From a virus, in the IMG/VR virus record IMGVR_UViG_3300010401_000028, positions 1 to 37,684 of that record: a stretch of DNA of 37,684 bases. One strand, written 5' to 3'. Position 1 is the first letter of the stretch. Every line of letters begins with the position of its first letter. The notes below the pieces were generated by a model that saw nothing but the letters and a program-made list of their open reading frames with translations, made no database searches and had not been told where the DNA came from. Positions 6,847 to 37,684 of the stretch are shown here, piece after piece. The translations under genes and the position numbers were made by a program.

Positions 6847-7071
6847 TTGAATAGATATATTCTTTTATTGTGCATGGCAGTTGCTACCTGTAATGCTGCT
6901 GAGAAGGTTACTATTGTCAGCTGTTACAGCAGTATGACCAGCAAACACCAAAGGCACGAGATCACCTTGAGTAACGGAAACTTCATTACTATCCAGACAT
7001 CATTGCAAAACGCCACCGATATAAAGGTGAACGTCTCTCAAAAGAAACTACCCATTCCTGTCCACAAATAA
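6847..7071 (+). CDS. Small exported protein (TTG start)
   Basis: 74 residues. The TTG start is set by AAGGAG eight bases upstream; no ATG is nearby. The N-terminus is a typical Sec signal peptide, with a short basic region, hydrophobic YILLLCMAVA and a likely cut after CNA (about residue 17). The mature part of about 57 residues is polar with probable beta strands (HEITLSNGNFITIQT) and one Cys. The TTG and strong ribosome site argue that the start is real. Function unknown; it would act in the periplasm or outside the host. Confidence 0.75.
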   Translation: MNRYILLLCMAVATCNAAEKVTIVSCYSSMTSKHQRHEITLSNGNFITIQTSLQNATDIKVNVSQKKLPIPVHK

Positions 7072-16015: not shown

Positions 16016-16291
16016 ATGAATATCAAGAGTCTTATTCTTACTGCCCTTTTAGTTCCTTCTTTCTGCCTAGCGCAGACCAAAGAAGAAAAGAAACAACAAC
16101 TTTCAGCCGATATGAATGCGCTCATCCTGAAGATGGTAGCAGCTGACCACCTCATGATATTAAATCTGTGGAGAGAATATCTCGCCGTAGACAAGGAAGG
16201 AGCGGAAAAAGCGCACCAATATTCACTGAAGATATACGAAGAAGCAGAAGCGCTATTAGACCAAATGGAAGAATTACAAAGTCATGAATAA
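16016..16291 (+). CDS. Small exported helical protein
   Basis: 91 residues with TAAGGAG upstream. The signal peptide ends SFCLA (about residue 19), leaving about 72 residues that are almost entirely helical and charged (a LSADMNALILKMV helix and a second EEAEALLDQMEEL helix). It has no cysteine after cleavage. An extracytoplasmic helical hairpin or coiled coil is likely, possibly a lysis or adsorption-blocking factor, but no family is recognised. First gene of the exported-protein block; the next gene starts inside its end. Confidence 0.75.
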   Translation: MNIKSLILTALLVPSFCLAQTKEEKKQQLSADMNALILKMVAADHLMILNLWREYLAVDKEGAEKAHQYSLKIYEEAEALLDQMEELQSHE

Positions 16292-16979
16292 GTACCCATT
16301 ATCACTCTTAATTATAGTTTCGACAGCAACTATAACAGCAAGCGAAAAAGACAAAAAGGCGTTTGACCTATTGAAGGATAAGTGGGGCGCAGTTACTGCT
16401 AACCAGTACAAACAGACCGCAGAAAACGCAAATGAGGCAGTTAAAACTGCAGCAACAGCATTGAGTCCGGAAGTTCTAGGTGAGTCAGGAAAGGCTCTCA
16501 CCAAAGGCCTTCTGGCTGGATTGGATGATAAAGAACTTGCTGCTAAAGCAGATGCACTAGGAAAGAACTTGGGTGAAGCAGCAGGAGCCGGACTTGTTGT
16601 CGGTATGGCTGGGGCAGTAAAGTCAGGATTAGTGGCCGCTCCTGGAGCAATAAAAGCAGGTGCAATTGTCTATGGACCTCCTCTAGCGGCAGGAACAGCG
16701 GCAGTAGGATTTACGGGATACATGGGCTATGTAGCGTGGGTATGCCACAGAGAGAACGGTTTCAATAGATGCCTGAGTAGACACTTTGATAACGAGAATG
16801 TTAACGAGCGCGGATTTCCAAGGCGCTGCGATTCTCCAGAAAGACGCCTGCGTTATTGGACCAACAGCGTGGCAGAAACATACATAGAACGTTTTAAAGC
16901 CATGAAGAAGAGAGGAGTGCGGCCAGAAGGGAAATGGCTTGGCCACCAAGGAATCGAAGATCAGAAAGACGGCAAGTAA
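16284..16979 (+). CDS. Exported protein with Ala/Gly-rich hydrophobic core
   Basis: 231 residues. The ATG at 16284 overlaps the previous gene by eight bases and has only a weak site, suggesting coupling. A signal peptide (cut after about residue 19) is followed by a helical charged region. Two hydrophobic stretches rich in Ala and Gly come next (EAAGAGLVVGMAGAVKSGLV, then AIVYGPPLAAGTAAVGFTGY). The tail is basic and Arg/Trp-rich, with two Cys near WVCHRENGFNRC. Glycine-zipper-like spacing suggests membrane insertion. The layout would fit a pore-forming or envelope protein; no enzyme motif is seen. Confidence 0.7.
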   Translation: MNKYPLSLLIIVSTATITASEKDKKAFDLLKDKWGAVTANQYKQTAENANEAVKTAATALSPEVLGESGKALTKGLLAGLDDKELAAKADALGKNLGEAAGAGLVVGMAGAVKSGLVAAPGAIKAGAIVYGPPLAAGTAAVGFTGYMGYVAWVCHRENGFNRCLSRHFDNENVNERGFPRRCDSPERRLRYWTNSVAETYIERFKAMKKRGVRPEGKWLGHQGIEDQKDGK

Positions 16980-17010
16980 GTATTGTATTTAATCACACCT
17001 AAGGAACCAT

Positions 17011-17703
17011 ATGTCATCAGTTATATCCAGAATTATGATTGCACCAGTTTTGTTCTCAACTCTATTGGGAGCATCCGAGATTAGAAAAGAAAATATATTC
17101 CACGACCGAGGAGACGTTGTAACGCACGGAAAGAGTGGGTTCAAGGTAAACGGTCAGAAAGTAAATAGCTTTGATCTGAGTGGAGATTTGAGGGGTGTTT
17201 CTTCTAAGAGAGACCTGAAGAATATCTTTGCTACAGGAAAAGCTCTTAGAGTGTCTAGAATAGGCAACAATTATGCTCTTGATACGCAAAGTCGTGTAAA
17301 AGGTGGCGGACCTATCTCTGGGTACATAGCTTACTGGGCAACAAAGGCATTGTGCTATGGTGGTCTAGCTGGCGCAGCAGGTGCAGGAATAGCAGCAGGT
17401 GCCGCTGTTGTCCTTCCAGCGGGAGCCGTAGGAACTATCGCTGCTAGTAGTATTGGTGCTGCTACCGTAGCAGGAGGAGCAAACGCTGCGGTTGGAATTA
17501 CTGCTGCAGCTGCTATGGGTACTCCTGGAGCAGTACTAGTCGCAACCGCTGTTGGCAGTAATGTTGCTGCCGCTACAGGCGTTGCTCTGGTAGCTGGAGA
17601 AGTTGCTTCAACAGCAGCAGCAACGGGTGGAATTATTGCATCAATAGAAGCGGCATCTTTGACCACAGGCCTATTCTTTAGCAGTATTCCGTTTCTTCCT
17701 TAA
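17011..17703 (+). CDS. Exported protein with long Ala/Gly hydrophobic tail
   Basis: 230 residues, TAAGGA before the ATG. The N-terminal signal ends near LLGA (residue 21). A polar beta-like domain follows (residues 22-95), and then about 120 residues composed almost only of Ala, Gly, Val, Ile, Ser and Thr with repeated small-residue spacing (AGAAGAGIAAGAAVV). It shares this two-part design with the 16284 gene, although the sequences do not align closely. Such glycine-zipper stretches insert in membranes in toxins and holin-like proteins. Function unknown; a membrane-active role is inferred. Confidence 0.7.
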   Translation: MSSVISRIMIAPVLFSTLLGASEIRKENIFHDRGDVVTHGKSGFKVNGQKVNSFDLSGDLRGVSSKRDLKNIFATGKALRVSRIGNNYALDTQSRVKGGGPISGYIAYWATKALCYGGLAGAAGAGIAAGAAVVLPAGAVGTIAASSIGAATVAGGANAAVGITAAAAMGTPGAVLVATAVGSNVAAATGVALVAGEVASTAAATGGIIASIEAASLTTGLFFSSIPFLP

Positions 17704-17715
17704 TAGTAAATAATC

Positions 17716-17739
17716 AGGGTGAGGGTAACTTCTCACCCT
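17716..17739 (+). other. Intercistronic hairpin
   Basis: AGGGTGAG pairs with CTCACCCT around an eight-base loop, 13 bases after a stop codon and directly before the AAAAGGAG ribosome site of the next gene. Confidence 0.6.
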
Positions 17740-17757
17740 CCTTCAAAAGGAGTAGTG

Positions 17758-18000
17758 ATGATACAAGATGTATGGGATATATTCACGAGTAAGTTTCAGC
17801 ACTATGTTAACATGGGAGCGACATGGAGCTTCTCTTATGGTGTGTTCCATCTCCTACAAGTTAAATGGGGATGGAAGGAAGCAGGATGCGTATTTGGAGC
17901 CCACGGATTAGGGGGATTCCTCATAAGCATCAGCATATTTATTATATTGTCATCGATTCTTAGTACGTATCAAGAGTACAAGAAAGAGAAAACTTCTTAA
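17758..18000 (+). CDS. Small membrane protein, candidate holin
   Basis: 80 residues. The start at 17758 has GGAG five bases upstream. A semi-hydrophobic aromatic segment (TWSFSYGVFHLLQV) at about residues 20-33 precedes one clear membrane span (GGFLISISIFIILSSIL, residues about 50-66). A charged tail (YQEYKKEKTS) ends the protein. Size, hydrophobic profile and charged C-terminus fit a holin, and it lies among exported proteins. There is no adjacent recognisable endolysin to support the call. Confidence 0.6.
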   Translation: MIQDVWDIFTSKFQHYVNMGATWSFSYGVFHLLQVKWGWKEAGCVFGAHGLGGFLISISIFIILSSILSTYQEYKKEKTS

Positions 18001-26988: not shown

Positions 26989-27643
26989 TTAACTTGCTAG
27001 AGTTGCACGAAGGTTGATGACCCATAGGTCATTTGTAATACGTGGGACCTCAGCAAACTTGTAGCCAACAGAAGCGTTAAGCGCCAATGGGCCATCATAT
27101 ATTGGTGGTCGATAGATAAAGCTTGCGCTGTATCCGTCTTGCTCTATGCATGCATATGCTTCCATACCTACACAGAAGATGTTGTAGACCGTGTTGCCTA
27201 AGCTAGAAGAGTTAGCAACTTGTGATCCGATTGAGGATATGAGGAAACGTAGGTTGCCTGCTGCACCCCATTCTGAGCGAAGAGCGTTCATAGGAGCTGG
27301 ATACTGGTTCTTTTGTACAAAGCCAGCGATGTTATCCAAGTTTCCTGTAAGGTTAGTGCTGCAAAGAGCAAAGTAAGCATCACGTACAGGAGCTGTACCG
27401 AACTTATCTTCACCTTCGATGTTGTCCATGATGGTGTATGCGTTGTTGTTCAACAAGGCACGAACCACGGTATCAACGTCTGAGCGGGTTATTTCCGTGG
27501 GGACGTCGCCATCGACTCCGCCAACACAGTTAATGAAGGATGCGGTAGCAGCCAACATATCACGGGTTAATTGGTCTTCTGTTTGACGAAGAGACACGCC
27601 AAGACGTGCTGCACATTCGTTTAATACAGGATCTTGATTTTGA
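26989..27643 (-). CDS. Major capsid protein, N4-gp56 type, exon 2
   Basis: Second exon of the split capsid gene, 655 bases: one base of codon 99 plus 218 codons. Without joining, the frame begins only at a stop within the intron; joined to exon 1 at 28445 it gives TLQNQDPVLNECAARLG across the splice, exactly as expected for this family, followed by LRQTEDQLTRDMLAAT. The rest includes helical and strand segments typical of the HK97-like capsid fold and ends WVINLRATLAS. The complete protein is 316 residues. A bare GTG at 27597 would remove conserved residues and is not the start. Confidence 0.92.
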
Positions 27644-27785
27644 CTAATAGAAACTTAATTCTATTATTCTGTTACTTTTATGACCAATATAATTGGCGGT
27701 AGGTCTTGTTATTCCCTACTCCCAGTCTTTCGAAAGGGTTCAGACTATCGCATATACCATTACTGGTATCCAAAGGGCTTAGTCG

Positions 27786-27814
27786 TTGCGGCTGTCCATC
27801 CGTTATGTTATTCT
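27786..27814 (+). promoter_or_regulatory. Possible promoter of the homing endonuclease
   Basis: TTGCGG (27786-27791), 17 bases, TATTCT (27809-27814), 38 bases before the endonuclease ATG. It lies inside the intron core on the strand opposite to the intron, so the ribozyme sequence would double as promoter DNA. Confidence 0.35.
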
Positions 27815-27851
27815 GTATTGTAGTGTTACATTCATTAACAACGGAGTCGTC

Positions 27852-28400
27852 ATGAACGAACGATTGCAATACAAACGTAAAGAATACAAAACAACTGATC
27901 TTGCTTATTTGGCCGGTATAATAGACGGAGAAGGTAGTATCTATATTGGAAACTTTAGCTGTAATCCACACACCAAACTTCCATATTATCAAACCAGCAT
28001 GCAGGTCACCAATACTGATGAAGCCCTTATTAGATGGCTTCAAGAAACTTTTGGTGGCCTTGTTAATGGCAAGTCTAAAGAGAATACCGATCGTCCCCGA
28101 AGAACAGCCTTTGTTTGGACTGCTACCGGAGAAAGACTCACGCATTTGTGTGAGCTCTTGATGCCGTATCTTATCTGTAAGAAGCGACAAGCAGAAATCA
28201 TGCTCAAAATGCGCGCCACATTTACCAAAAATGGTGCCACAAAAGGTCGCCAAGGAGTTCCAATACTTCCTGAAGAAGTCAGAATTCTTAGGCAAACTCT
28301 TATGGACGAAATGCGCGGTCTCCATATTCGTATTCATTCCTATAAAAATCACGGACACTTGCCTCGGGTTGCCATGCCTCCATTGCTAGAAGAGGTTTAG
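27852..28400 (+). CDS. LAGLIDADG homing endonuclease in the capsid intron, antisense
   Basis: 182 residues. The motif AYLAGIIDGEGSIYIG (near residue 20) is the single LAGLIDADG helix, so the enzyme probably acts as a homodimer. It would cut intronless capsid alleles and spread the intron. Other typical parts are strands after the motif (QTSMQVTNTDEALIRWL), an Arg/Lys-rich stretch (RPRRTAFVWTA) and a helical C-terminus. The ATG at 27852 has GGAG five bases upstream; a TTG further out lies in the ribozyme core and is not used. The gene runs opposite to the intron and capsid, so it needs its own promoter. It fills most of the intron after P1 and ends 44 bases from the 5' splice site. Confidence 0.88.
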   Translation: MNERLQYKRKEYKTTDLAYLAGIIDGEGSIYIGNFSCNPHTKLPYYQTSMQVTNTDEALIRWLQETFGGLVNGKSKENTDRPRRTAFVWTATGERLTHLCELLMPYLICKKRQAEIMLKMRATFTKNGATKGRQGVPILPEEVRILRQTLMDEMRGLHIRIHSYKNHGHLPRVAMPPLLEEV

Positions 28401-28444
28401 GTTTTCCCAGTAATCACCTTCGGTTTATTCACGCCTCAAAACCA

Positions 28445-28740
28445 AGCGTGACCTGCTCATTCAATTGGACATAGGTACCATAGAAACTAATCTTAGCGTC
28501 AATATCCACTGCAGTAAGGTTTTGTGCAGGGGGAGTAACGCCTGAGTTTCCTAGTGGAACCATAGCTGTATTTAACGCGTTATACCGTCTCATACGTAAA
28601 GTTGTACCACCATTGCGTGGCATATTTTTACGCATTGCTGGGATCTTATGAATCATATTGGGGACTGGTACGCTCAGAAGTTTATAACTGAAACTTTGCT
28701 GCACTGGTGCAGGTAGCGTACTAGTAGTAGTGATTGCCAT
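28445..28740 (-). CDS. Major capsid protein, N4-gp56 type, exon 1
   Basis: 296 bases, 98 codons plus two bases. The ATG at 28740 follows AAAAAGGAG; the ATG at 28764 lacks a site. The residues MIHKIPAMRKNMPRNGGTTL and RMRRYNALNTAMVPLGN match the N-terminal arm and first strand region of N4-gp56-type capsids, followed by ISFYGTYVQLNEQVTL. Read through without splicing, the frame adds GFEA and stops inside the intron. After splicing it joins 27643 in frame (296 + 655 = 951 bases, 316 residues). It is the main shell protein, assembled with the scaffold next upstream. Confidence 0.92.
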
Positions 28741-28899
28741 AGCAATCTCCTTTTTAAAAGACACTACTAATGTTTAAGAGAGGGCGATTCTCACATACGC
28801 CTGGGTTGGCGAGTCCCGTACGCCGATTCCATTTCGCTCTTGGCCAAAAAGCTACTTAGGATAGAGGTGGAGATGCGAGCTCCGATACGCAGTAAGATC

Positions 28900-29044: not shown

Positions 29045-29866
29045 TTAATATCTATTCTTCATGGCTTGGAACATCTCTTGTCGAAGCTGTTTAGCCAGAT
29101 CATCCGTAAGACCATCAGCGAATGCGTTGGCACGAGATAACGGTGTATCCCCTTGTGTTGGGGCAATGCTGGTTAGTGGTCGTGGTTTAACTGAATTCTG
29201 AGCAGCAATCACCTTATCCTTCTGAAAATCATCGGTATAGATGCCAAGGTTCTTGATAACCGTATACGCGGTAACGGCCTTACTATACAAGTCTTGAGAA
29301 TCTCCAATAGTTTTAGCAACATCAGGATACATCTCCGAGAGAGAGGCAATATTGGACGCAGAGACAACTTTATCAAAGTCTGGGTATTGATGCTTTAAGC
29401 GAGCTTCTGTGCTCCAGGATTGCGTCTGTTGTTTGCTCTGAGTGATCTGCTCTTCAAGGTTACGGATCTTTTTCTGTAATTTGGTTAAGTGCTTACCCTC
29501 TACCAAATCATCAGCACCAATAGAAAGGTCTTCTGTCTCTTGGCTGGCTTGGGTTTGGTTTTGGATTGGTTTTTGTTGATAGGACTGGAGTTGGCGCATT
29601 AATTCTTCGCGCTCAGCCTCTGCCTTACGAGCACGTTCACGCAACAGAGCCATATTCTCTTCTTTGGAATAGGCGCTTGGCTTGGGAGCTGGGGCTGGTG
29701 CTGGTTCAGGTTGAGCGGCTTCAACTGTCTCCTGTTCTTGAGCTTCTTGCTCAACTACCGGCTCTTCTACCGGTGCATCTGGCACAACACCGAAATTCTT
29801 CTGCGCTTCTTTATTCATAAGGTCTATTTGCTGCTGCGACACGGGCGGCAGGGAATGCATTGACAT
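29045..29866 (-). CDS. Head scaffolding protein
   Basis: 273 residues. It is highly charged, with a Glu/Gln/Pro-rich N-terminal third (APAPAPKPSAYSKEE) and a long coiled coil (NMALLRERARKAEAEREELM; HLTKLQKKIRNLEEQITQ). A globular helical region with YPDFDKVVSASNIASLSEMY follows, and the C-terminal helix is basic (DDLAKQLRQEMFQAMKNRY). Such composition immediately before the capsid gene is typical for scaffold, which is needed for shell assembly and then leaves. AGGAGCAG precedes the ATG. No protease motif is present. Confidence 0.8.
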   Translation of the reverse strand: MSMHSLPPVSQQQIDLMNKEAQKNFGVVPDAPVEEPVVEQEAQEQETVEAAQPEPAPAPAPKPSAYSKEENMALLRERARKAEAEREELMRQLQSYQQKPIQNQTQASQETEDLSIGADDLVEGKHLTKLQKKIRNLEEQITQSKQQTQSWSTEARLKHQYPDFDKVVSASNIASLSEMYPDVAKTIGDSQDLYSKAVTAYTVIKNLGIYTDDFQKDKVIAAQNSVKPRPLTSIAPTQGDTPLSRANAFADGLTDDLAKQLRQEMFQAMKNRY

Positions 29867-30384: not shown

Positions 30385-30639
30385 TTATTTCTTCTTCTTA
30401 GAGCCCTTTTTCTTAGGCTTTACTTCTTCTCCAGCCTTACGGGCTTCTGAAAGAGCGATAGCAACGGCCTGTTTGCGAGATTTCACTTCAGGTCCTTTTT
30501 TAGAGCCAGAGTGAAGTTCGCCTTCTTTGTACTCGTGCATCACTTTTTCAACTTTGTCTTCTTTCTTGGCACGTTTAACCATCTTTTTGACCACGCGTCC
30601 TGCTTTTTTACCAGCACGCTTCATCTTTTTTGTTGCCAT
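30385..30639 (-). CDS. Basic DUF6496-like protein
   Basis: 84 residues, about one third Lys and Arg. A Lys-rich N-terminus (KKMKRAGKKAGRVVKK) is followed by the DUF6496 core VMHEYKEGELHSGSKKG and RKQAVAIALSEARKAG, then a second polylysine tail. Proteins of this type are common in phages and bacteria, are probably DNA-binding, and have no defined role. In a virion block it could condense packaged DNA. GGAGAGATA precedes the ATG. Confidence 0.8.
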   Translation of the reverse strand: MATKKMKRAGKKAGRVVKKMVKRAKKEDKVEKVMHEYKEGELHSGSKKGPEVKSRKQAVAIALSEARKAGEEVKPKKKGSKKKK

Positions 30640-30693: not shown

Positions 30694-31593
30694 TTAGCAC
30701 ATACCAGAATCACATGGCTTTGGCGCACCAGGAACTGGTGGTACCAACGGCTGACATGGATTAGTTACCGCACTACAAGGGATATTTACCAGCGGACATA
30801 CTTTACAAGCGGTGCCTGTAGAGCTGCTAGAAAGAGCTGACATGAATATGATCTTGAATAGAGAGTTACCGTCTTCTATACCAGCACCTACAATATCTAC
30901 GGTTCCTGTTACAGCAACGCCATTTCCGCCCAAGATGTCATACTTCATGGTAACCACATCACCTTGTTGTAAAGTGATCAAGCTACTCAGAATTACTCTT
31001 TGATCATTAAGGAAGCTTAAGAACGGCGAGAATGATTCTCGAACCAAGATAGCGTTTACGTATATCTCAACATTAGCTATAGGGGTTCCCAAGATTGGAC
31101 CATTAGTAGGCTGAACATTGGTTACATTGACCTTAAACGTCATCATGTAGTAACCAGCGGAAGGAGCTGTATAGCTCGTGTTAGGAGAAAGAGAGACGTT
31201 GTTATTAGGGTCATCGACTATGTTATTAAAGTTTAAGAAGGATCCTAAGGTGTAAGTCGTGTTTGTGCTGTAATTGACTGTCGCTCTAAACTTTGTGAAC
31301 GGTTGCAGATTACTCACGGTGAGATCATCAACACAAAGCTTGTTAATGGTTCCTTCCTTTACACACAGGCTATTAGCACCGAGCATGTCTGCTGATACTT
31401 GAGATGCCTGGAGAGCAACGGGAACACAAAGGTTATTAATGACTGCGCTTTCAGCATTGAGGTTCTTTGCTGAAACGAGTTGAGAACAGATATTATCAGC
31501 TACTATTTGTTGAAGTTTACCGCAATCTGCTTTTAAGCATTTTGCACAGATACAATCAACATTCATACAATTAGAAGAACATAACGACGCCAT
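30694..31593 (-). CDS. Cysteine-rich C1q/TNF-like virion or surface protein
   Basis: 299 residues. The start at 31593 follows AGAGGTG. The N-terminal 35 residues hold eight Cys (CSSNCMNVDCICAKC). Next come short repeats with NLCV-, SLCVK- or KLCVD-type words, up to about residue 115. A C1q/TNF-like jelly-roll domain follows (FRATVNYS, NTSYTAPSAGYYMMTFKV, EIYVNAILVRESF, LQQGDVVTMKY), which would trimerise. The C-terminus is a Cys/Pro-rich tail. More than twenty Cys is unusual for a phage protein made in a reducing cytoplasm. It is probably exposed on the virion and used in attachment. It follows the exported peptidase. Confidence 0.7.
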   Translation of the reverse strand: MASLCSSNCMNVDCICAKCLKADCGKLQQIVADNICSQLVSAKNLNAESAVINNLCVPVALQASQVSADMLGANSLCVKEGTINKLCVDDLTVSNLQPFTKFRATVNYSTNTTYTLGSFLNFNNIVDDPNNNVSLSPNTSYTAPSAGYYMMTFKVNVTNVQPTNGPILGTPIANVEIYVNAILVRESFSPFLSFLNDQRVILSSLITLQQGDVVTMKYDILGGNGVAVTGTVDIVGAGIEDGNSLFKIIFMSALSSSSTGTACKVCPLVNIPCSAVTNPCQPLVPPVPGAPKPCDSGMC

Positions 31594-31668
31594 TAGGCAC
31601 CTCTTAGTAATACGGGAAACTCTCAAATAACAACCAGCACTCAACCCTCCCTTTTTAGTTGTTTCTCT

Positions 31669-32466
31669 TTACACATGAAACCATTGCACCGAGAATGAAG
31701 ATCCATCAGGAGACAAAGCAGAGACAATCGACTTTTTAGTTCCGTCTGGAGCAACCATATTCATGGCCTCATGGGACCATGCAGGGTTATTAATTACGCC
31801 CACAATACCTGTTATCTCAGCTGAACATTCTGACATATAAATCTTTCCAAAATCTGACAACGGAAGCGTCTGATTAAGCCAAGGAGCTTCCACTATCCAC
31901 TCAGCACAGACGCGTTCAAGAATAGCAGGGCTAATACGAGGAATAACGCTGTATACCTTCTTGGTATGGTTCATAATCTCTAGTATGAAAAGACCATTAG
32001 CGATAGGAATAACGCCGTTTAAGGTGCTATAACTGACTGAAGCCGTGATAAAGTCACCAACTTCAACAGGGAATCCTACAATCTCATTACTTCCGGCAGG
32101 AAACATCTCATACCATGCATAATGTGTCTCGTATCCATCGGTCCAATCATGCTCGGTACCAAGCTGTTCTACAGAATAGCTGCCAGCTCCGTCTATACCG
32201 ACCCATATTGAACAGGAAGTATTCACGGTTGCTGCAACTATGTTAGGAACTACCCATGATCCAGTCACTTGGGTAACGGTGTAGAATGTAGGCCTTAAAA
32301 GATTGGGAGCTGCGACATACCCGCTCCAGTTGCCACTACTTACGGTGGTGTCAAGATGGCTACGAGAAGCTCTGATACGCGGCTTTAGATCGCAAGAAAG
32401 GTGGGTATACCCTTCATGACAATCAACAACGAAACCCAGCAAGAGAAGAATGACTAAAAAGATCAT
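31669..32466 (-). CDS. Exported glutamic peptidase, family G1 (eqolisin)
   Basis: 265 residues. A signal peptide (MIFLVILLLLGFVVDC) is followed by a linker and a G1 domain from about residue 44. The family signatures are in order: NWSGYV (46-51), TGSWVVP (68-74), SIWVGIDG (86-93), VEQLGTE with Gln101, HYAWYEMFP (115-123) and CAEWIVEAP with Glu193. Gln and Glu at these places form the catalytic pair of eqolisins, acid peptidases best known from fungi and also found in bacteria. The domain looks complete. The ATG overlaps the previous stop (ATGA) after AGGAG. The gene sits in the virion block, so the enzyme may be carried or released at lysis. Substrate unknown. Confidence 0.92.
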   Translation of the reverse strand: MIFLVILLLLGFVVDCHEGYTHLSCDLKPRIRASRSHLDTTVSSGNWSGYVAAPNLLRPTFYTVTQVTGSWVVPNIVAATVNTSCSIWVGIDGAGSYSVEQLGTEHDWTDGYETHYAWYEMFPAGSNEIVGFPVEVGDFITASVSYSTLNGVIPIANGLFILEIMNHTKKVYSVIPRISPAILERVCAEWIVEAPWLNQTLPLSDFGKIYMSECSAEITGIVGVINNPAWSHEAMNMVAPDGTKKSIVSALSPDGSSFSVQWFHV

Positions 32467-32765
32467 AGGTCTCCTTCAGTGTCGAATAATTGGTTGGTTG
32501 CAAACCCGTATGAGTTCAATGAACGCCTTGGATATTCGGTGTGGATTGGTGTTCCAGAAAGATTGGCCATGGCTCTGGTGTCTTCTTTGACCATGCCGCC
32601 TTCAGCCATTTCAATACGACGTCTTGGATCTACGCCTCTCCAGAAATAATCTGAAACTTGTTGTGCTCTTTGGAAAGAAAGTTCGTCCGTACGACGCTCA
32701 TATTTTCCCATAGTGCCATATTCCTGCTCAGATCCTGGACGGGACATAGCTTTTCTGTTTTTCAT
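32463..32765 (-). CDS. Small virion-block protein, PRRR-EM paralogue 1
   Basis: 100 residues. The start at 32765 is chosen for GAAAGGAAAGC upstream; an ATG at 32789 lies inside a palindrome and lacks a site. The N-terminus is basic. The C-terminal half has VDPRRRIEMAEGGMVKEDTR and AMANLSG...EYPRR, which repeats the layout of the 33019 protein (PRRRQEM, GM, EDHRAIANL, EYP). The two are paralogues separated by one gene. No function known to me; a minor virion component is possible. Confidence 0.7.
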   Translation of the reverse strand: MKNRKAMSRPGSEQEYGTMGKYERRTDELSFQRAQQVSDYFWRGVDPRRRIEMAEGGMVKEDTRAMANLSGTPIHTEYPRRSLNSYGFATNQLFDTEGDL

Positions 32766-32781
32766 TGCTTTCCTTTCAACC

Positions 32782-32798
32782 CGTGACATTTTGTCACG
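32782..32798. promoter_or_regulatory. Perfect palindrome, possible operator
   Basis: CGTGACA TTT TGTCACG, seven pairs around three bases, just before the ribosome site of the 32463 gene. It is too short-looped for a good terminator and has no T-run. A DNA-binding dimer site is plausible. Confidence 0.4.
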
Positions 32799-32816
32799 AC
32801 CTGGATAGATCAGCAA

Positions 32817-32866: not shown

Positions 32867-33019
32867 TTAACGGACGCGAACTGTCTCTTCAAACAACAGG
32901 CGTTGATTAACACGCTTTTGTTGTTTAGTACGCTTAGATTGTATGTTGGCAGGCACTCCTAATATCGCGTAGGCAATTCTTTTTGCCCTACCTGACATTC
33001 TTGGAATAACTGGCATCAT
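32867..33019 (-). CDS. Small basic protein
   Basis: 50 residues, starting at ATG 33019 (TAATG overlap with the previous stop) or at the next codon 33016, which is better spaced from AAAGGTG. The sequence MMPVIPRMSGRAKRIAYAIL is followed by VPANIQSKRTKQQKRVNQRL and an acidic end. Strong positive charge suggests nucleic-acid contact. It fills the gap between two paralogous genes in the virion block. No family recognised. Confidence 0.65.
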   Translation of the reverse strand: MMPVIPRMSGRAKRIAYAILGVPANIQSKRTKQQKRVNQRLLFEETVRVR

Positions 33020-33390
33020 TACACCTTTTTCGGATAGAAGTTCATTGCGCGTTTACCATCGTCATAGTCCATTTGGCGATCAACACCTGCAATAGTGTCA
33101 TCAAGCCCTTCTGGCATGTATGGTCCGGGTTTTGGATATTCTTTGATCATCACGTTTTGAGGCAAGTTGGCAATTGCTCGGTGATCTTCATGGATCATGC
33201 CAGCATCTTCCATCTCTTGGCGTCTGCGTGGTTCCATTCCTGCATACGGCTCATACCCTACTTTGAAGCTGTGCGGTTCTGCACCACGACGAGCTTTTTT
33301 GTAGTGTTCTGAATCCCCTTTGCCACCATGAGACTCATTAAGGCTTATGCTGCCTCCGCCATCACCACGGTGAAATCTTTTCTTTGCCAT
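33019..33390 (-). CDS. Small virion-block protein, PRRR-EM paralogue 2
   Basis: 123 residues. The ATG at 33390 follows GGAACGATA; the longer frame upstream overlaps the portal gene and has no site. The N-terminus is basic and Gly-rich (AKKRFHRGDGGGSISL). The core is MEPRRRQEMEDAGMIHEDHR and AIANLPQNVMIKEYPKPGP, shared with the 32463 gene. The end is polar. It follows the portal gene, so a portal- or head-associated minor protein is likely, without proof. Confidence 0.7.
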   Translation of the reverse strand: MAKKRFHRGDGGGSISLNESHGGKGDSEHYKKARRGAEPHSFKVGYEPYAGMEPRRRQEMEDAGMIHEDHRAIANLPQNVMIKEYPKPGPYMPEGLDDTIAGVDRQMDYDDGKRAMNFYPKKV

Positions 33391-33457
33391 TATCGTTCCT
33401 TTTTTGGTAGAAACTGTCACGCCATAGCCTTGTGCGACGGCGGACAACGTTATACGT

Positions 33458-35515
33458 CTAACTACCTGAAACAGAACCATTCTGCTCAGGGCGTATTTCT
33501 CTCACATTTTGACTAACATTAGCCTGGGAACCAACTGTTTCTTTCTCCTTCAAAAGATGGGAAAGACTCACGAGTTTCTCAACGTGTGCTAGATCAATTC
33601 CTTCAATCTCTTTGAGCGCTTTGACCAAGTTGAGTAGACCAATCTCTTGATCCTTCACTGCAGCCGCACGACGTTCAACGGCAAGCGCCTGATTCTCTTG
33701 TACCCGACTCGTACGTTCAACACCAAGTCCACGATCAGCCTCAGCCCGAGCTTGTGCAAGTTCTGTACGAGCTGCCTGCTCTTGAAGAGCTGCCTGCATC
33801 TGTTGCTGTTGCATCTCAGCCTGTTGTTGTTGAGCCTTCTGCATGTTCTCGATGATACGTTTCTTATTCTGCACAGTAGAGACTTCAAGAAGATCTTCGC
33901 TAGTGATAGCAACGCCCGCTTCACGAAGCATGAGCATCTGCGCCATCTGCATCTGTTGTTGGGTAGAAGTATTAAGACCTTCTTCAACGACAGCGTGGTA
34001 TTTTCCAAACGCCTTGGAGTAAAACTGTGGCTGTGGTTCTTCACCTTCAAGAATCTTTTTCACTTTGCCTGGCACGAAATTAGCCTGTATCAGATCGATC
34101 ATTTTACGACCCAGCAGCTTTTGTGACTTATCTAGAAGATCAAAGACGCATTGCAGCGTGGTAGTAGAAGCTGATTGTTTAAGCATAGAGTGATAGCCGG
34201 AAAGCGTGTCTTTGTTATCAAAGCCAAGAAGCTCATCAGATACGCCTGCAACCTCTTGGATCTCTTTGGCTAAAAGTTCAGACAATTGGATCATGGATGG
34301 TGGAATCTGTGGTGCTTCTATCTTGATCACATCGGTCATGTTGGCATCAGACTTGAGCGCAAGCCCTTTACCCTGTCCTGAAAGGAATACATCTCGAGGA
34401 TTCACGAGAGCATTCTCTTTGTATATGTAGCCACTATTGATCTGTGACTCTAGGATATCGAGTTCAACAATACGTCTACGGTTGTAGAGATATTGAGCAT
34501 CACGCAATCCACGAACCATCCCTTGGACACGGAATGGCCAGTATGGACTTTCTGGATGATAATACGTGAGTACTGGAACGAATGGATAAGAGTCTATACC
34601 TATTGGCTGTGGACCATCAAACATAACTTTGTTTTGGACAACGATTGCAAGACGGACGGTTGGAATCTCTTGGTCTATAACCGTAACGGATGGATAGGTT
34701 TGGAGGAACTTCTTCAAGCGCTCATCGTTGGTGCTCTTCCATTCCATGGTCTCACCGGTTTGGGTATCGACCAGCATCTTTTGGGTTCTATAATCACGGT
34801 AATAATATTCGTCATACGTAAGAAGATTCTTGAGTCCGTAATTGTAAGATTCTGGCATGTACTGGAACTTACCGTCACGGTTATCATGCCCCCATAAAGA
34901 AAGGATCTCGTCAGTGTATTCAGGAAGAAGAGCGATGCATTCACGCTTGGTTAGATAAGAACGTTTCCAGATATAGTTGCAGTCCGACATATCCTGCTTG
35001 CGCATATAGGGATCGACAAGGAAAGAGTTATAGGCGCAGTTATCAACTTTGATATTGCCGGATATAGGATCTTCACGGTAATCCATCCAGACCTGCAAGA
35101 AGTTCATACCGGTGATAAGTGAACCCTGGAATGCTTCTGAGATGGTGTCTAGAACGCCTTCCTGATTGTTAATCCACATAAGTATCTTGGTGAACTGGTC
35201 AGCTGTCTGCGCATCTCCATTTTCAACCGGGGTACAGACGGTGGATTTACGATTTCGGCGCTGATGTCCAGAAACCATGTCGACAACCCGGCGAATTCTA
35301 TTGAAATTGAAGTTCCTACGTCGATTGGCAGGCAGGTTCCCATAAAGATCGTTCCACATGGTCTGATCGCCAGTATAAAAGCGAAGATCAGTGTCAGCTT
35401 CAGCCCATTGTGATTGGTTAATGGTGATAGATTCAGCATACGCGGCTTCCATACGCGACAAGATACCCTTGTGGCGTTCGTCATAATATTGTGGACCCAA
35501 CTGAGGGAAAAGCAT
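33458..35515 (-). CDS. Portal protein (P22-like)
   Basis: 685 residues, the size of P22-type portals. It forms the twelve-fold ring through which DNA enters and leaves the head and to which terminase docks. The N-terminal part has FNFNRIRRVVDMVSGHQRRN and a helical wing (QFTKILMWINNQEGVLDTIS); the middle has FVPVLTYYHPESPYWPFRVQ and GMVRGLRDAQYLYNRRRI. The stem region is followed by a Gln-rich coiled coil (MQQQQMQAALQEQAARTELA) like the barrel or crown of P22 gp1. The ATG at 35515 has GGAGG upstream. First gene of the structural block, with its own promoter motif. Confidence 0.92.
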   Translation of the reverse strand: MLFPQLGPQYYDERHKGILSRMEAAYAESITINQSQWAEADTDLRFYTGDQTMWNDLYGNLPANRRRNFNFNRIRRVVDMVSGHQRRNRKSTVCTPVENGDAQTADQFTKILMWINNQEGVLDTISEAFQGSLITGMNFLQVWMDYREDPISGNIKVDNCAYNSFLVDPYMRKQDMSDCNYIWKRSYLTKRECIALLPEYTDEILSLWGHDNRDGKFQYMPESYNYGLKNLLTYDEYYYRDYRTQKMLVDTQTGETMEWKSTNDERLKKFLQTYPSVTVIDQEIPTVRLAIVVQNKVMFDGPQPIGIDSYPFVPVLTYYHPESPYWPFRVQGMVRGLRDAQYLYNRRRIVELDILESQINSGYIYKENALVNPRDVFLSGQGKGLALKSDANMTDVIKIEAPQIPPSMIQLSELLAKEIQEVAGVSDELLGFDNKDTLSGYHSMLKQSASTTTLQCVFDLLDKSQKLLGRKMIDLIQANFVPGKVKKILEGEEPQPQFYSKAFGKYHAVVEEGLNTSTQQQMQMAQMLMLREAGVAITSEDLLEVSTVQNKKRIIENMQKAQQQQAEMQQQQMQAALQEQAARTELAQARAEADRGLGVERTSRVQENQALAVERRAAAVKDQEIGLLNLVKALKEIEGIDLAHVEKLVSLSHLLKEKETVGSQANVSQNVREIRPEQNGSVSGS

Positions 35516-35861: not shown

Positions 35862-36083
35862 TTATTTGTCATCCGTCGATTTGTCTTCGCCATTCAGATC
35901 TTCAAGATACATATAGACAATGGTACGGTCGTCGATGCTCATCTTCTCCAAGAGATTGCATACATACGACAACCAGACACGTCGTTGCGAATTGGTTACA
36001 CCGGCTAGATCGAGCGTCTGTTCAAGGGTGATTGCCTGCATTGAACCAAAACAGAGCAATAAGCCTAGTATGAGCTTTTTCAC
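35862..36083 (-). CDS. Small exported protein
   Basis: 73 residues. A signal peptide MKKLILGLLLCFGSMQA (17) is followed by about 56 residues that are helical and end in an acidic tail (LEDLNGEDKSTDDK). The ATG overlaps the previous stop (ATGA), so it is coupled to the gene at 36080. It has one Cys in the mature part. Unknown function; an envelope-acting early protein such as superinfection exclusion is one possibility among several. Confidence 0.75.
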   Translation of the reverse strand: MKKLILGLLLCFGSMQAITLEQTLDLAGVTNSQRRVWLSYVCNLLEKMSIDDRTIVYMYLEDLNGEDKSTDDK

Positions 36084-36388: not shown

Positions 36389-36850
36389 CTATTTTCCTCT
36401 AAGATGAGCTTCCTTCAATCTGCTAACGATTTCCATTGCTATTTCAAGAAAGTATTCAGCCTGGCCAAGCAACTTAATATCAGCTTCGTCCAGCTGACTC
36501 TGCTGCTTTACAGGTTCCTCTGGGGGCAACGAAGCAAGAGAGAGTTGTCCATCAGGAGCAACTTTTTCTTCTTCGAACTGTAGAAAGTCTTTGTCATCCC
36601 ATTCTTCAGCCTTATTCTTGTTTCTTTGTTCTTTGCCGAGCTTCCACGTCTCTTTTTTGGCTTCATTAGAGCATAAAACACACTGTGAACTCTCCTTCAA
36701 GGCATAAGGAGCCATCCATTGTACGGTTCTTTTACAGTCGCATTCCACGAGCCACATGGTACGTCGGTCTCTCTTCTCAGCTACCTTAAAATTCCATTTG
36801 CCCATTCCTGCTTTTATGGGCTCCTTTTTCAATCTTCTTCCTCTAGTCAT
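36389..36850 (-). CDS. Zinc-ribbon protein
   Basis: 153 residues; the start at 36850 has GGGAG eight bases upstream. The N-terminus is basic. A zinc-ribbon-like unit follows: WLVECDCKRTVQWMAPYALK then CVLC (CxC...CxxC). This matches the layout in the next gene upstream, so the two are probably related DNA- or RNA-binding proteins. The C-terminal 70 residues are acidic and helical. Unknown role. Confidence 0.7.
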   Translation of the reverse strand: MTRGRRLKKEPIKAGMGKWNFKVAEKRDRRTMWLVECDCKRTVQWMAPYALKESSQCVLCSNEAKKETWKLGKEQRNKNKAEEWDDKDFLQFEEEKVAPDGQLSLASLPPEEPVKQQSQLDEADIKLLGQAEYFLEIAMEIVSRLKEAHLRGK

Positions 36851-36876
36851 TCTCACTTCTCCCCCTGTAAGCACTA

Positions 36877-37485
36877 TTAAAAGAAAAGATCATCTTCATC
36901 GTCTTCTAGATCTTTTTTCTGTTCAACTCTCTCCTTGCGGGCGTAGTACCGGTCCTTAGCTCTTTCCTTTCTTCTCTTGTATCCTTCTGTCTCTTGAAAA
37001 CGTCCCCATTTACAGTTCTCTTTGTAAAAGTCTTTCTTAGGATCAAGACGCACAAGATGGGTGTTTATCGGCTTATCTTCTCCCATATCCTCGCAAAAGG
37101 ATTGGAATGACTTCCAGCGATCGCAGACCTTGATGCCTACAGCACCATAATACTTATAACCTGGATGTAAGGGATTGATACAGGGACGTCGCATAGCCAT
37201 CCAATCATGCCAAAGAGGATGACCCATCCTATACTTACCCAGCCTTGCAGAAAAAGTTCTTCTGTTTTCTTTTGCTTGTATAAAGCAGCCATAGCAGCGA
37301 CTGGTCTGGTTGTTTCTTAAAAGGTAACCAAGAGCTATATGGTCATTGCCACACTCACACTTGCATAGATAATAACGAGCGCCTTTCTGCTTGCTTCTAG
37401 CCACATCCAAGGAGATTACGGTAAGCTTTCCAAACTCTTTTCCAATCATATATTCTGGTGGATACTTATTTCGTTTATCTGCCAT
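36877..37485 (-). CDS. HNH/AP2-like DNA-binding protein with zinc ribbon
   Basis: 202 residues from ATG 37485 (GGGAGAGAG upstream); a longer open frame has no site. Residues 14-25 (IGKEFGKLTVIS) and the cysteines CKCEC (41-45) and CYGC (64-67) form a zinc ribbon. Residues 110-165 (YKYYGAVGIKVCDRWKSFQS, then FCEDMGE, LVRLDP, YKENCKW) match the domain common in phage HNH-type and AP2-like proteins. The catalytic HNH histidines are not evident, so DNA binding is surer than cutting. The C-terminal tail is Arg/Lys- then Asp-rich. It lies in the packaging unit just after the junction-crossing gene. Confidence 0.7.
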   Translation of the reverse strand: MADKRNKYPPEYMIGKEFGKLTVISLDVARSKQKGARYYLCKCECGNDHIALGYLLRNNQTSRCYGCFIQAKENRRTFSARLGKYRMGHPLWHDWMAMRRPCINPLHPGYKYYGAVGIKVCDRWKSFQSFCEDMGEDKPINTHLVRLDPKKDFYKENCKWGRFQETEGYKRRKERAKDRYYARKERVEQKKDLEDDEDDLFF

Positions 37486-37507
37486 ACTCTCTCCCTTGTG
37501 GTTTTTC

Positions 37508-37684
37508 CTACTTGTGACACGAGTCCGCTTTGCGTCCACTCTTCTTGTAAGCCTTATAATACCTCTCATACAGATCGATTGACTGTTGGGCCTCCTTGGA
37601 GTCTGTTTTCCAGTTGTCACACATCATATGAAGAGTAGCGAAAAGAGCCCCGAGCATGATTTCTTGCCGTAACAGATTGTCTAA
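37508..37684 (-). CDS. Hypothetical protein crossing the circle junction (3' part)
   Basis: The last 58 codons plus stop of the 145-residue protein that starts at 384. Bases 37562-37684 repeat bases 1-123 in the same frame. The unique end reads YYKAYKKSGRKADSCHK, basic with one Cys, and stops 23 bases before the start of the zinc-ribbon gene. The intact frame across the joined ends supports circularity. Confidence 0.8.
   Translation of the reverse strand, partial: LDNLLRQEIMLGALFATLHMMCDNWKTDSKEAQQSIDLYERYYKAYKKSGRKADSCHK
37562..37684. repeat. Terminal direct repeat, right copy
   Basis: Second copy of the 123-base terminal overlap, identical to bases 1-123. It lies inside the coding frame of the gene that crosses the circle junction. 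Confidence 0.93.

Follow-up and report, generated by a model that had tools for sequence, protein, structure and literature searches.

What is a gene for an apparently secreted acid peptidase doing among the head genes of a phage? The gene in question occupies positions 31669-32466 (minus strand) of the window – by which we mean the whole stretch of DNA analysed, the 37,684 nucleotides of IMG/VR record IMGVR_UViG_3300010401_000028. A reading made from the sequence alone (the sequence-only reading) had assigned its product to family G1 of the glutamic peptidases, the eqolisins. The eqolisin proves to be a secure and otherwise unremarkable G1 peptidase in a most unusual setting, and apparently represents the first branch carried by phages in a family that has been described from fungi, bacteria and archaea.

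Identity of the peptidase

PF01828 (Peptidase_A4, corresponding to MEROPS G1) is the sole Pfam family on the 265-residue, ATG-initiated product (E=3.8e-28), and its score of 98.8 bits exceeds the curated cut-off (22.3 bits) more than fourfold. Up to E=1 the only PDB sequences to match were scytalidopepsin B and aspergillopepsin II; a search of NCBIfam with the protein gave no match. The active-site glutamine and glutamate that the sequence-only reading had recognised in the motifs VEQLGTE and AEWIVEAP are both in place. Alignment with aspergilloglutamic peptidase (1y43) sets Gln101 (codon 32164-32166, minus strand) on the catalytic glutamine and Glu193 (codon 31888-31890, minus strand) on the catalytic glutamate. 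In the alignment with scytalidopepsin B (SGP, 1s2b) Glu193 falls on E136, and the glutamine region is out of register for want of a gap at that point.

Conservation extends well beyond the catalytic pair. Across 48 homologues W47, G49, G90, G93, Q101, G103, W190, E193 and C214 are invariant and D92, W88, W118 and E120 nearly so; moreover, the supporting residues of SGP (W39, G41, D43, G44, G55, W67 and E69) are matched by W88, G90, D92, G93, G103, W118 and E120 of the window protein. Between close pairs of phages dN/dS is 0.07-0.15, which indicates that the gene is under strong purifying selection.

A structure prediction, which like the profile search had been suggested by the sequence-only reading, gave a G1 beta-sandwich. 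The AlphaFold2 model, built from the 48 homologues, has a mean pLDDT of 89.6 and a pTM of 0.87; Foldseek ranks 2ifw, 2ifr, 1s2b, 1y43 and 3trs first (E 1e-11 to 3e-8), with TM scores against G1 structures of 0.80-0.85, normalised on target length, and 0.82 for the best hits. YncM and neprosin follow at a distance, and no viral structure in BFVD matches the model as a whole. Since the G1 fold is of the concanavalin A-like class (PMC6357015, PMC6154417), the protein could be thought an inactive or lectin-like descendant serving in binding; the catalytic pair and the supporting residues are fully conserved, however, and dN/dS is about 0.1, which makes this very improbable. We have next to no doubt that 31669-32466 codes for a bona fide glutamic peptidase of family G1, its activity being predicted from sequence and model.

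Comparison with known systems places the protein within the family while setting it apart from each characterised relative. SGP (1s2b/2ifw) is alike in fold, in the catalytic Gln and Glu and in the supporting Trp, Asp, Gly and Glu; it differs in being fungal, in having a longer prepro-segment and in sharing only about 20% identity with the window protein. The disulfide conserved among fungal enzymes (C101-C181) has no counterpart in the window protein, in which other cysteines are conserved. A phage glutamic peptidase is known in MEROPS family G2, the pre-neck appendage of phi29, which is a self-cleaving chaperone unrelated to the eqolisin in fold and role. The Pro2-Glu protease of strawberry mottle virus is likewise a virus-encoded glutamic protease with a predicted lectin-like fold, but it is a polyprotease of a plant RNA virus, and its sequence, spacing and sheet arrangement are unlike those of eqolisins (PMC6357015). 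PepG1 of Alicyclobacillus sp. DSM 15716 is closer in being bacterial and secreted, with a similar spacing between its catalytic residues (Q117 and E199, as compared to Q101 and E193), but it is the chromosomal enzyme of a free-living acidophile (PMC3009609).

A probable signal for export

The presence of a signal peptide, also claimed by the sequence-only reading, is likely: a strongly hydrophobic N-terminal stretch is found in the window protein and in every complete homologue, phage and cellular. Judged by eye and by hydrophobicity, a probable Sec signal peptide spans residues 1-19 (32410-32466, minus strand), and a helix is modelled, at lower confidence, at residues 2-13. The position of cleavage is uncertain, as many phage eqolisins end the hydrophobic stretch with an Ala-x-Ala-like site and the corresponding site in the window protein, FVVDC|HEG, is atypical. 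Residues 20-43 (32338-32409, minus strand) may form a prosegment, a short basic segment containing the stretch KPRIRASRSH, which the model leaves disordered, with confidence below 50 at residues 35-40. Given that eqolisins are known as preproproteins, with prosegments rich in positive residues (PMC6154417), and that the homologues have hydrophobic N-termini, we consider it likely that the phage eqolisin is exported.

Setting within the phage genome

An exact direct terminal repeat of 123 bp (1-123 = 37562-37684) indicates that the window is probably a complete or circular phage genome of about 37.56 kb. The eqolisin lies, as the sequence-only reading had it, inside a virion block, on the minus strand with the genes for portal, scaffold and major capsid. 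Upstream are a P22-like portal protein (33458-35515; PF16510, 1.7e-71; phrog_156) and two small conserved genes, 33019-33480 and, between portal and eqolisin, 32463-32816, the former partly paralogous to the latter. Downstream follow the gene for a Cys-rich protein (30694-31644), a variable neighbour whose relatives are mainly from Dependentiae, then that for a small basic protein (30385-30639), a probable scaffold gene (29045-29866), so named for its conservation and its position ahead of the capsid gene, and the major capsid gene (26989-28764). The large terminase subunit is encoded at 381-1739, also on the minus strand (phrog_2, 1.1e-31). A Shine-Dalgarno sequence, AAGGAG, at 32471-32476 (minus strand) stands 4 nt ahead of the eqolisin ATG, which overlaps the stop of 32463-32816 as ATGA; on this basis the eqolisin is probably translated together with the portal operon.

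The major capsid gene is split in the window by an intron-like insert (27636-28455), with phrog_1357 matching both parts and the frame intact in relatives. The insert holds an antisense ORF for a LAGLIDADG endonuclease (27786-28400, plus strand). In relatives the capsid gene is uninterrupted or carries other inserts (L005, L022, L025; labels beginning with L are ours). Rfam matched no intron and nothing else in the window.

Cargo in a fixed slot

A critical issue is whether the eqolisin belongs to the head or is merely carried among its genes. Scans of IMG/VR brought the number of contigs with an eqolisin to 20 by adding 19, all from a single lineage, and wherever the flanks are covered the slot is the same: one flank consists of the portal gene with one or two small genes, the other of the small basic gene (the conserved downstream boundary), gene 29887 and the scaffold gene. 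The same flanks in 20 contigs, a G+C content of 0.445 in the gene as against 0.447 in the genome, and a start codon overlapping the end of the preceding phage gene render negligible the chance that assembly or binning fused a bacterial gene to a phage contig; nothing was found in favour of such a fusion, and on the strength of the repeated synteny we rejected contamination. Beyond this lineage, INPHARED holds no homologue at E<=1, PHROGs has no family for the protein and our literature searches found no phage eqolisin; the remark in the sequence-only reading that no phage example was known thus agrees with everything searched, BFVD included. A distant G1 peptidase (31%) is encoded at 7755-8705 of L289, a 69-kb, 70% G+C IMG/VR contig that is possibly actinobacterial; genes of the window phage lineage were not found in the stretch of L289 examined, and its G1 gene may be bacterial.

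The slot is constant; its occupation is not. L093, whose portal is 91% identical to that of the window, has the homologue of 32463-32816 followed by an unrelated small gene. The eqolisin is also absent from L088, L090 and L091, from numerous relatives at a greater distance and from phage contigs binned in Chlamydiota genomes. Mapped onto the portal tree, the presence of the eqolisin requires four state changes (3-4 across bootstrap trees). Furthermore the two trees disagree, L024 being placed with L027 in the eqolisin tree (100/97) and with L006 and L008 in the portal tree (100/100). This conflict, combined with the four state changes, argues that the eqolisin has passed from one phage subclade to another, always into the same slot.

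In many phages the gene for the head protease stands between portal and scaffold, and precisely this position could be taken to mean that the eqolisin is a virion-associated or head-maturation protease acting on scaffold or capsid proteins. Its probable signal peptide and acid-type active site speak against such a function, as does its absence from relatives that share the portal, scaffold and capsid genes; the head module evidently does without it. We consider a virion or head protease very improbable, and rejected a part in head maturation because relatives retain the head module without the eqolisin. Variable presence within a conserved structural operon, and the existence of cellular homologues in the likely hosts, are features of cargo, and the eqolisin is very probably an interchangeable, moron-like auxiliary gene in the head operon, and not a head protein.

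The sequence-only reading had also raised the possibility that the eqolisin trims its Cys-rich neighbour. This found no support: the Cys-rich gene adjoins the eqolisin in one other contig only, L006, and is missing from the remaining eqolisin contigs examined, for which reason we rejected trimming as the function. Relatives of the Cys-rich protein, up to 40% identical in Dependentiae, occur in 6 of 101 genomes of that phylum as compared to 1 of 234 from Chlamydiota. By description, its outline resembles a secreted family of Babela that combines a Cys-rich part with a beta-barrel (PMC4378268).

Cellular relatives and the likely hosts

Among 84,980 species genomes, relatives of the eqolisin are found in Dependentiae (TM6, Babeliales) and in Chlamydiota, including Parachlamydiaceae, with G1 genes in 10/101 and 16/234 genomes, respectively. 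Those inspected are chromosomal and have signal-type N-termini; their neighbours we take, by sequence recognition, to be tsf/frr, ruvB/ftsW, enolase and a secretin. The chromosomal eqolisins (L012, L014, L016, L013 and others) share about 32-48% identity and the same motifs with the window protein, and differ in lying outside phage operons, adjoining housekeeping genes where inspected. To our knowledge none of these chromosomal enzymes has been characterised.

The closest cellular eqolisin (L012) is that of SZAS-2, a member of Dependentiae represented by 1.08 Mb of genome. Together with the phage eqolisins it forms a clade (100/99) placed among Dependentiae genes (92/92); the hypothesis that the phage eqolisins have one origin cannot be rejected (p-AU 0.405), but the best tree nests the SZAS-2 gene inside them. 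Apparently, then, the eqolisin has been exchanged between phages and the chromosomes of such bacteria, in one direction or the other. SZAS-2 also carries a match to a second element of the window, a cassette of three signal-peptide ORFs and a small membrane ORF (16016-18000, plus strand): homologues of 16284-17703 stand in the same order in SZAS-2, adjoining ribosomal protein genes, and 16284-16979 is matched by SZAS-2 alone among 335 Dependentiae and Chlamydiota genomes. Among the phages the cassette shifts position and strand, adjoining the eqolisin in L009 and L027; in L006 and L008 it stands between the genes for scaffold and capsid. A cassette common to a phage and a Dependentiae genome offers a handle on hosts for which hardly any phages are known.

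The host signals nonetheless conflict, with backbone genes pointing to contigs binned in Chlamydiota and cargo genes to Dependentiae. The portal is matched in 10 of 234 Chlamydiota genomes as against none of 101 from Dependentiae, and of these two sets only Chlamydiota yields long, strong matches to the terminase; these links depend on contigs assigned by binning, and binning can place a contig wrongly. We consider it likely that this lineage has obligate bacteria of protists as its hosts; for the branch with the eqolisin, whose backbone would be common to phages of Chlamydiota, Dependentiae are the likeliest hosts. The eqolisin is a marker for an extensive and hardly described group of uncultured tailed phages, apparently linked to bacteria that dwell within amoebae and other protists.

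A possible role for the eqolisin

Two observations from related systems bear on function. PepG1, a bacterial member of G1 that has been characterised, is active at pH 2-5 (PMC3009609), and Chromulinavorax, of the Dependentiae, enters its protist by way of food vacuoles and encodes many proteases that carry signal peptides and are predicted to be secreted (PMC6561590). For these reasons the likeliest role, to which we give a probability of roughly one half, is that of a late-made, host-derived acid protease, exported by Sec as a zymogen and having its site of action in the acid vacuole of the protist or the envelope of the bacterium. The acidic niche proposed by the sequence-only reading is supported in spirit, since the relatives of the eqolisin are from obligate intracellular bacteria of protists.

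We infer the following course of events. Phages of Dependentiae or of environmental Chlamydiota would carry the eqolisin as cargo in its fixed slot in the head operon, having exchanged the gene with those for secreted eqolisins on the chromosomes of Dependentiae. Its product, translated late along with the portal operon, would be a precursor comprising signal peptide, short basic prosegment and catalytic beta-sandwich with Gln101 and Glu193. Export would follow the Sec pathway of the host, and activation would occur in acid only – in the food vacuole or phagolysosome of the protist, or in the bacterial periplasm and on the surface facing the vacuole. Cleavage of proteins there might feed or protect the infected bacterium, or might aid release of the phage. 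A phage with an acid protease of the host secretome suggests an influence on a third partner, the protist, or else proteolytic release.

The main alternative is a lysis enzyme, which placement in a late operon would also suit. The exported eqolisin might replace or assist a peptidoglycan endolysin by cleaving proteins in the envelope of a host that has scant peptidoglycan or none, and at least one member of the Dependentiae, Babela, is predicted to be without peptidoglycan (PMC4378268). Endolysin matches are absent from the window genome (Pfam, PHROG) and from the unmatched ORFs of the other eqolisin phages (Pfam). Seven relatives in which no eqolisin was detected carry an M15-type peptidase (PF13539) in the stretch from portal to capsid, and this gene never occurs together with an eqolisin; the exclusion (0/14 versus 7/29, p=0.076) is however not significant, is uncorrected for kinship and includes three slots of the seven that are only partly covered. 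Most relatives lacking the eqolisin likewise lack a recognised lysin, the cellular orthologues lie outside lysis loci, and the acid optimum of the family suits the periplasm only when the bacterium is inside an acid vacuole. Taken together, these points leave such a replacement or auxiliary function unlikely, and decidedly unlikely in its stricter form, in which a protein-cutting lysis enzyme takes the place of the endolysin in a host whose wall is slight or protein-based, with the acid of the vacuole as the switch. The secreted acid protease remains our preferred reading.

The M15-type peptidase is itself a likely endolysin, found at 5942-6295 of L090 and also in L209, L214, L217, L219, L223 and L256.

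Minor features of the window deserve mention. HNH endonuclease-like ORFs at 36877-37620 and 36389-36874 (minus strand) occupy the interval between terminase and portal, and their homologues have several different locations among relatives. Additional small ORFs, at 6847-7071 (plus strand) and 35862-36083 (minus strand), have starts resembling signal peptides; the candidate exported proteins of the window phage number about six.
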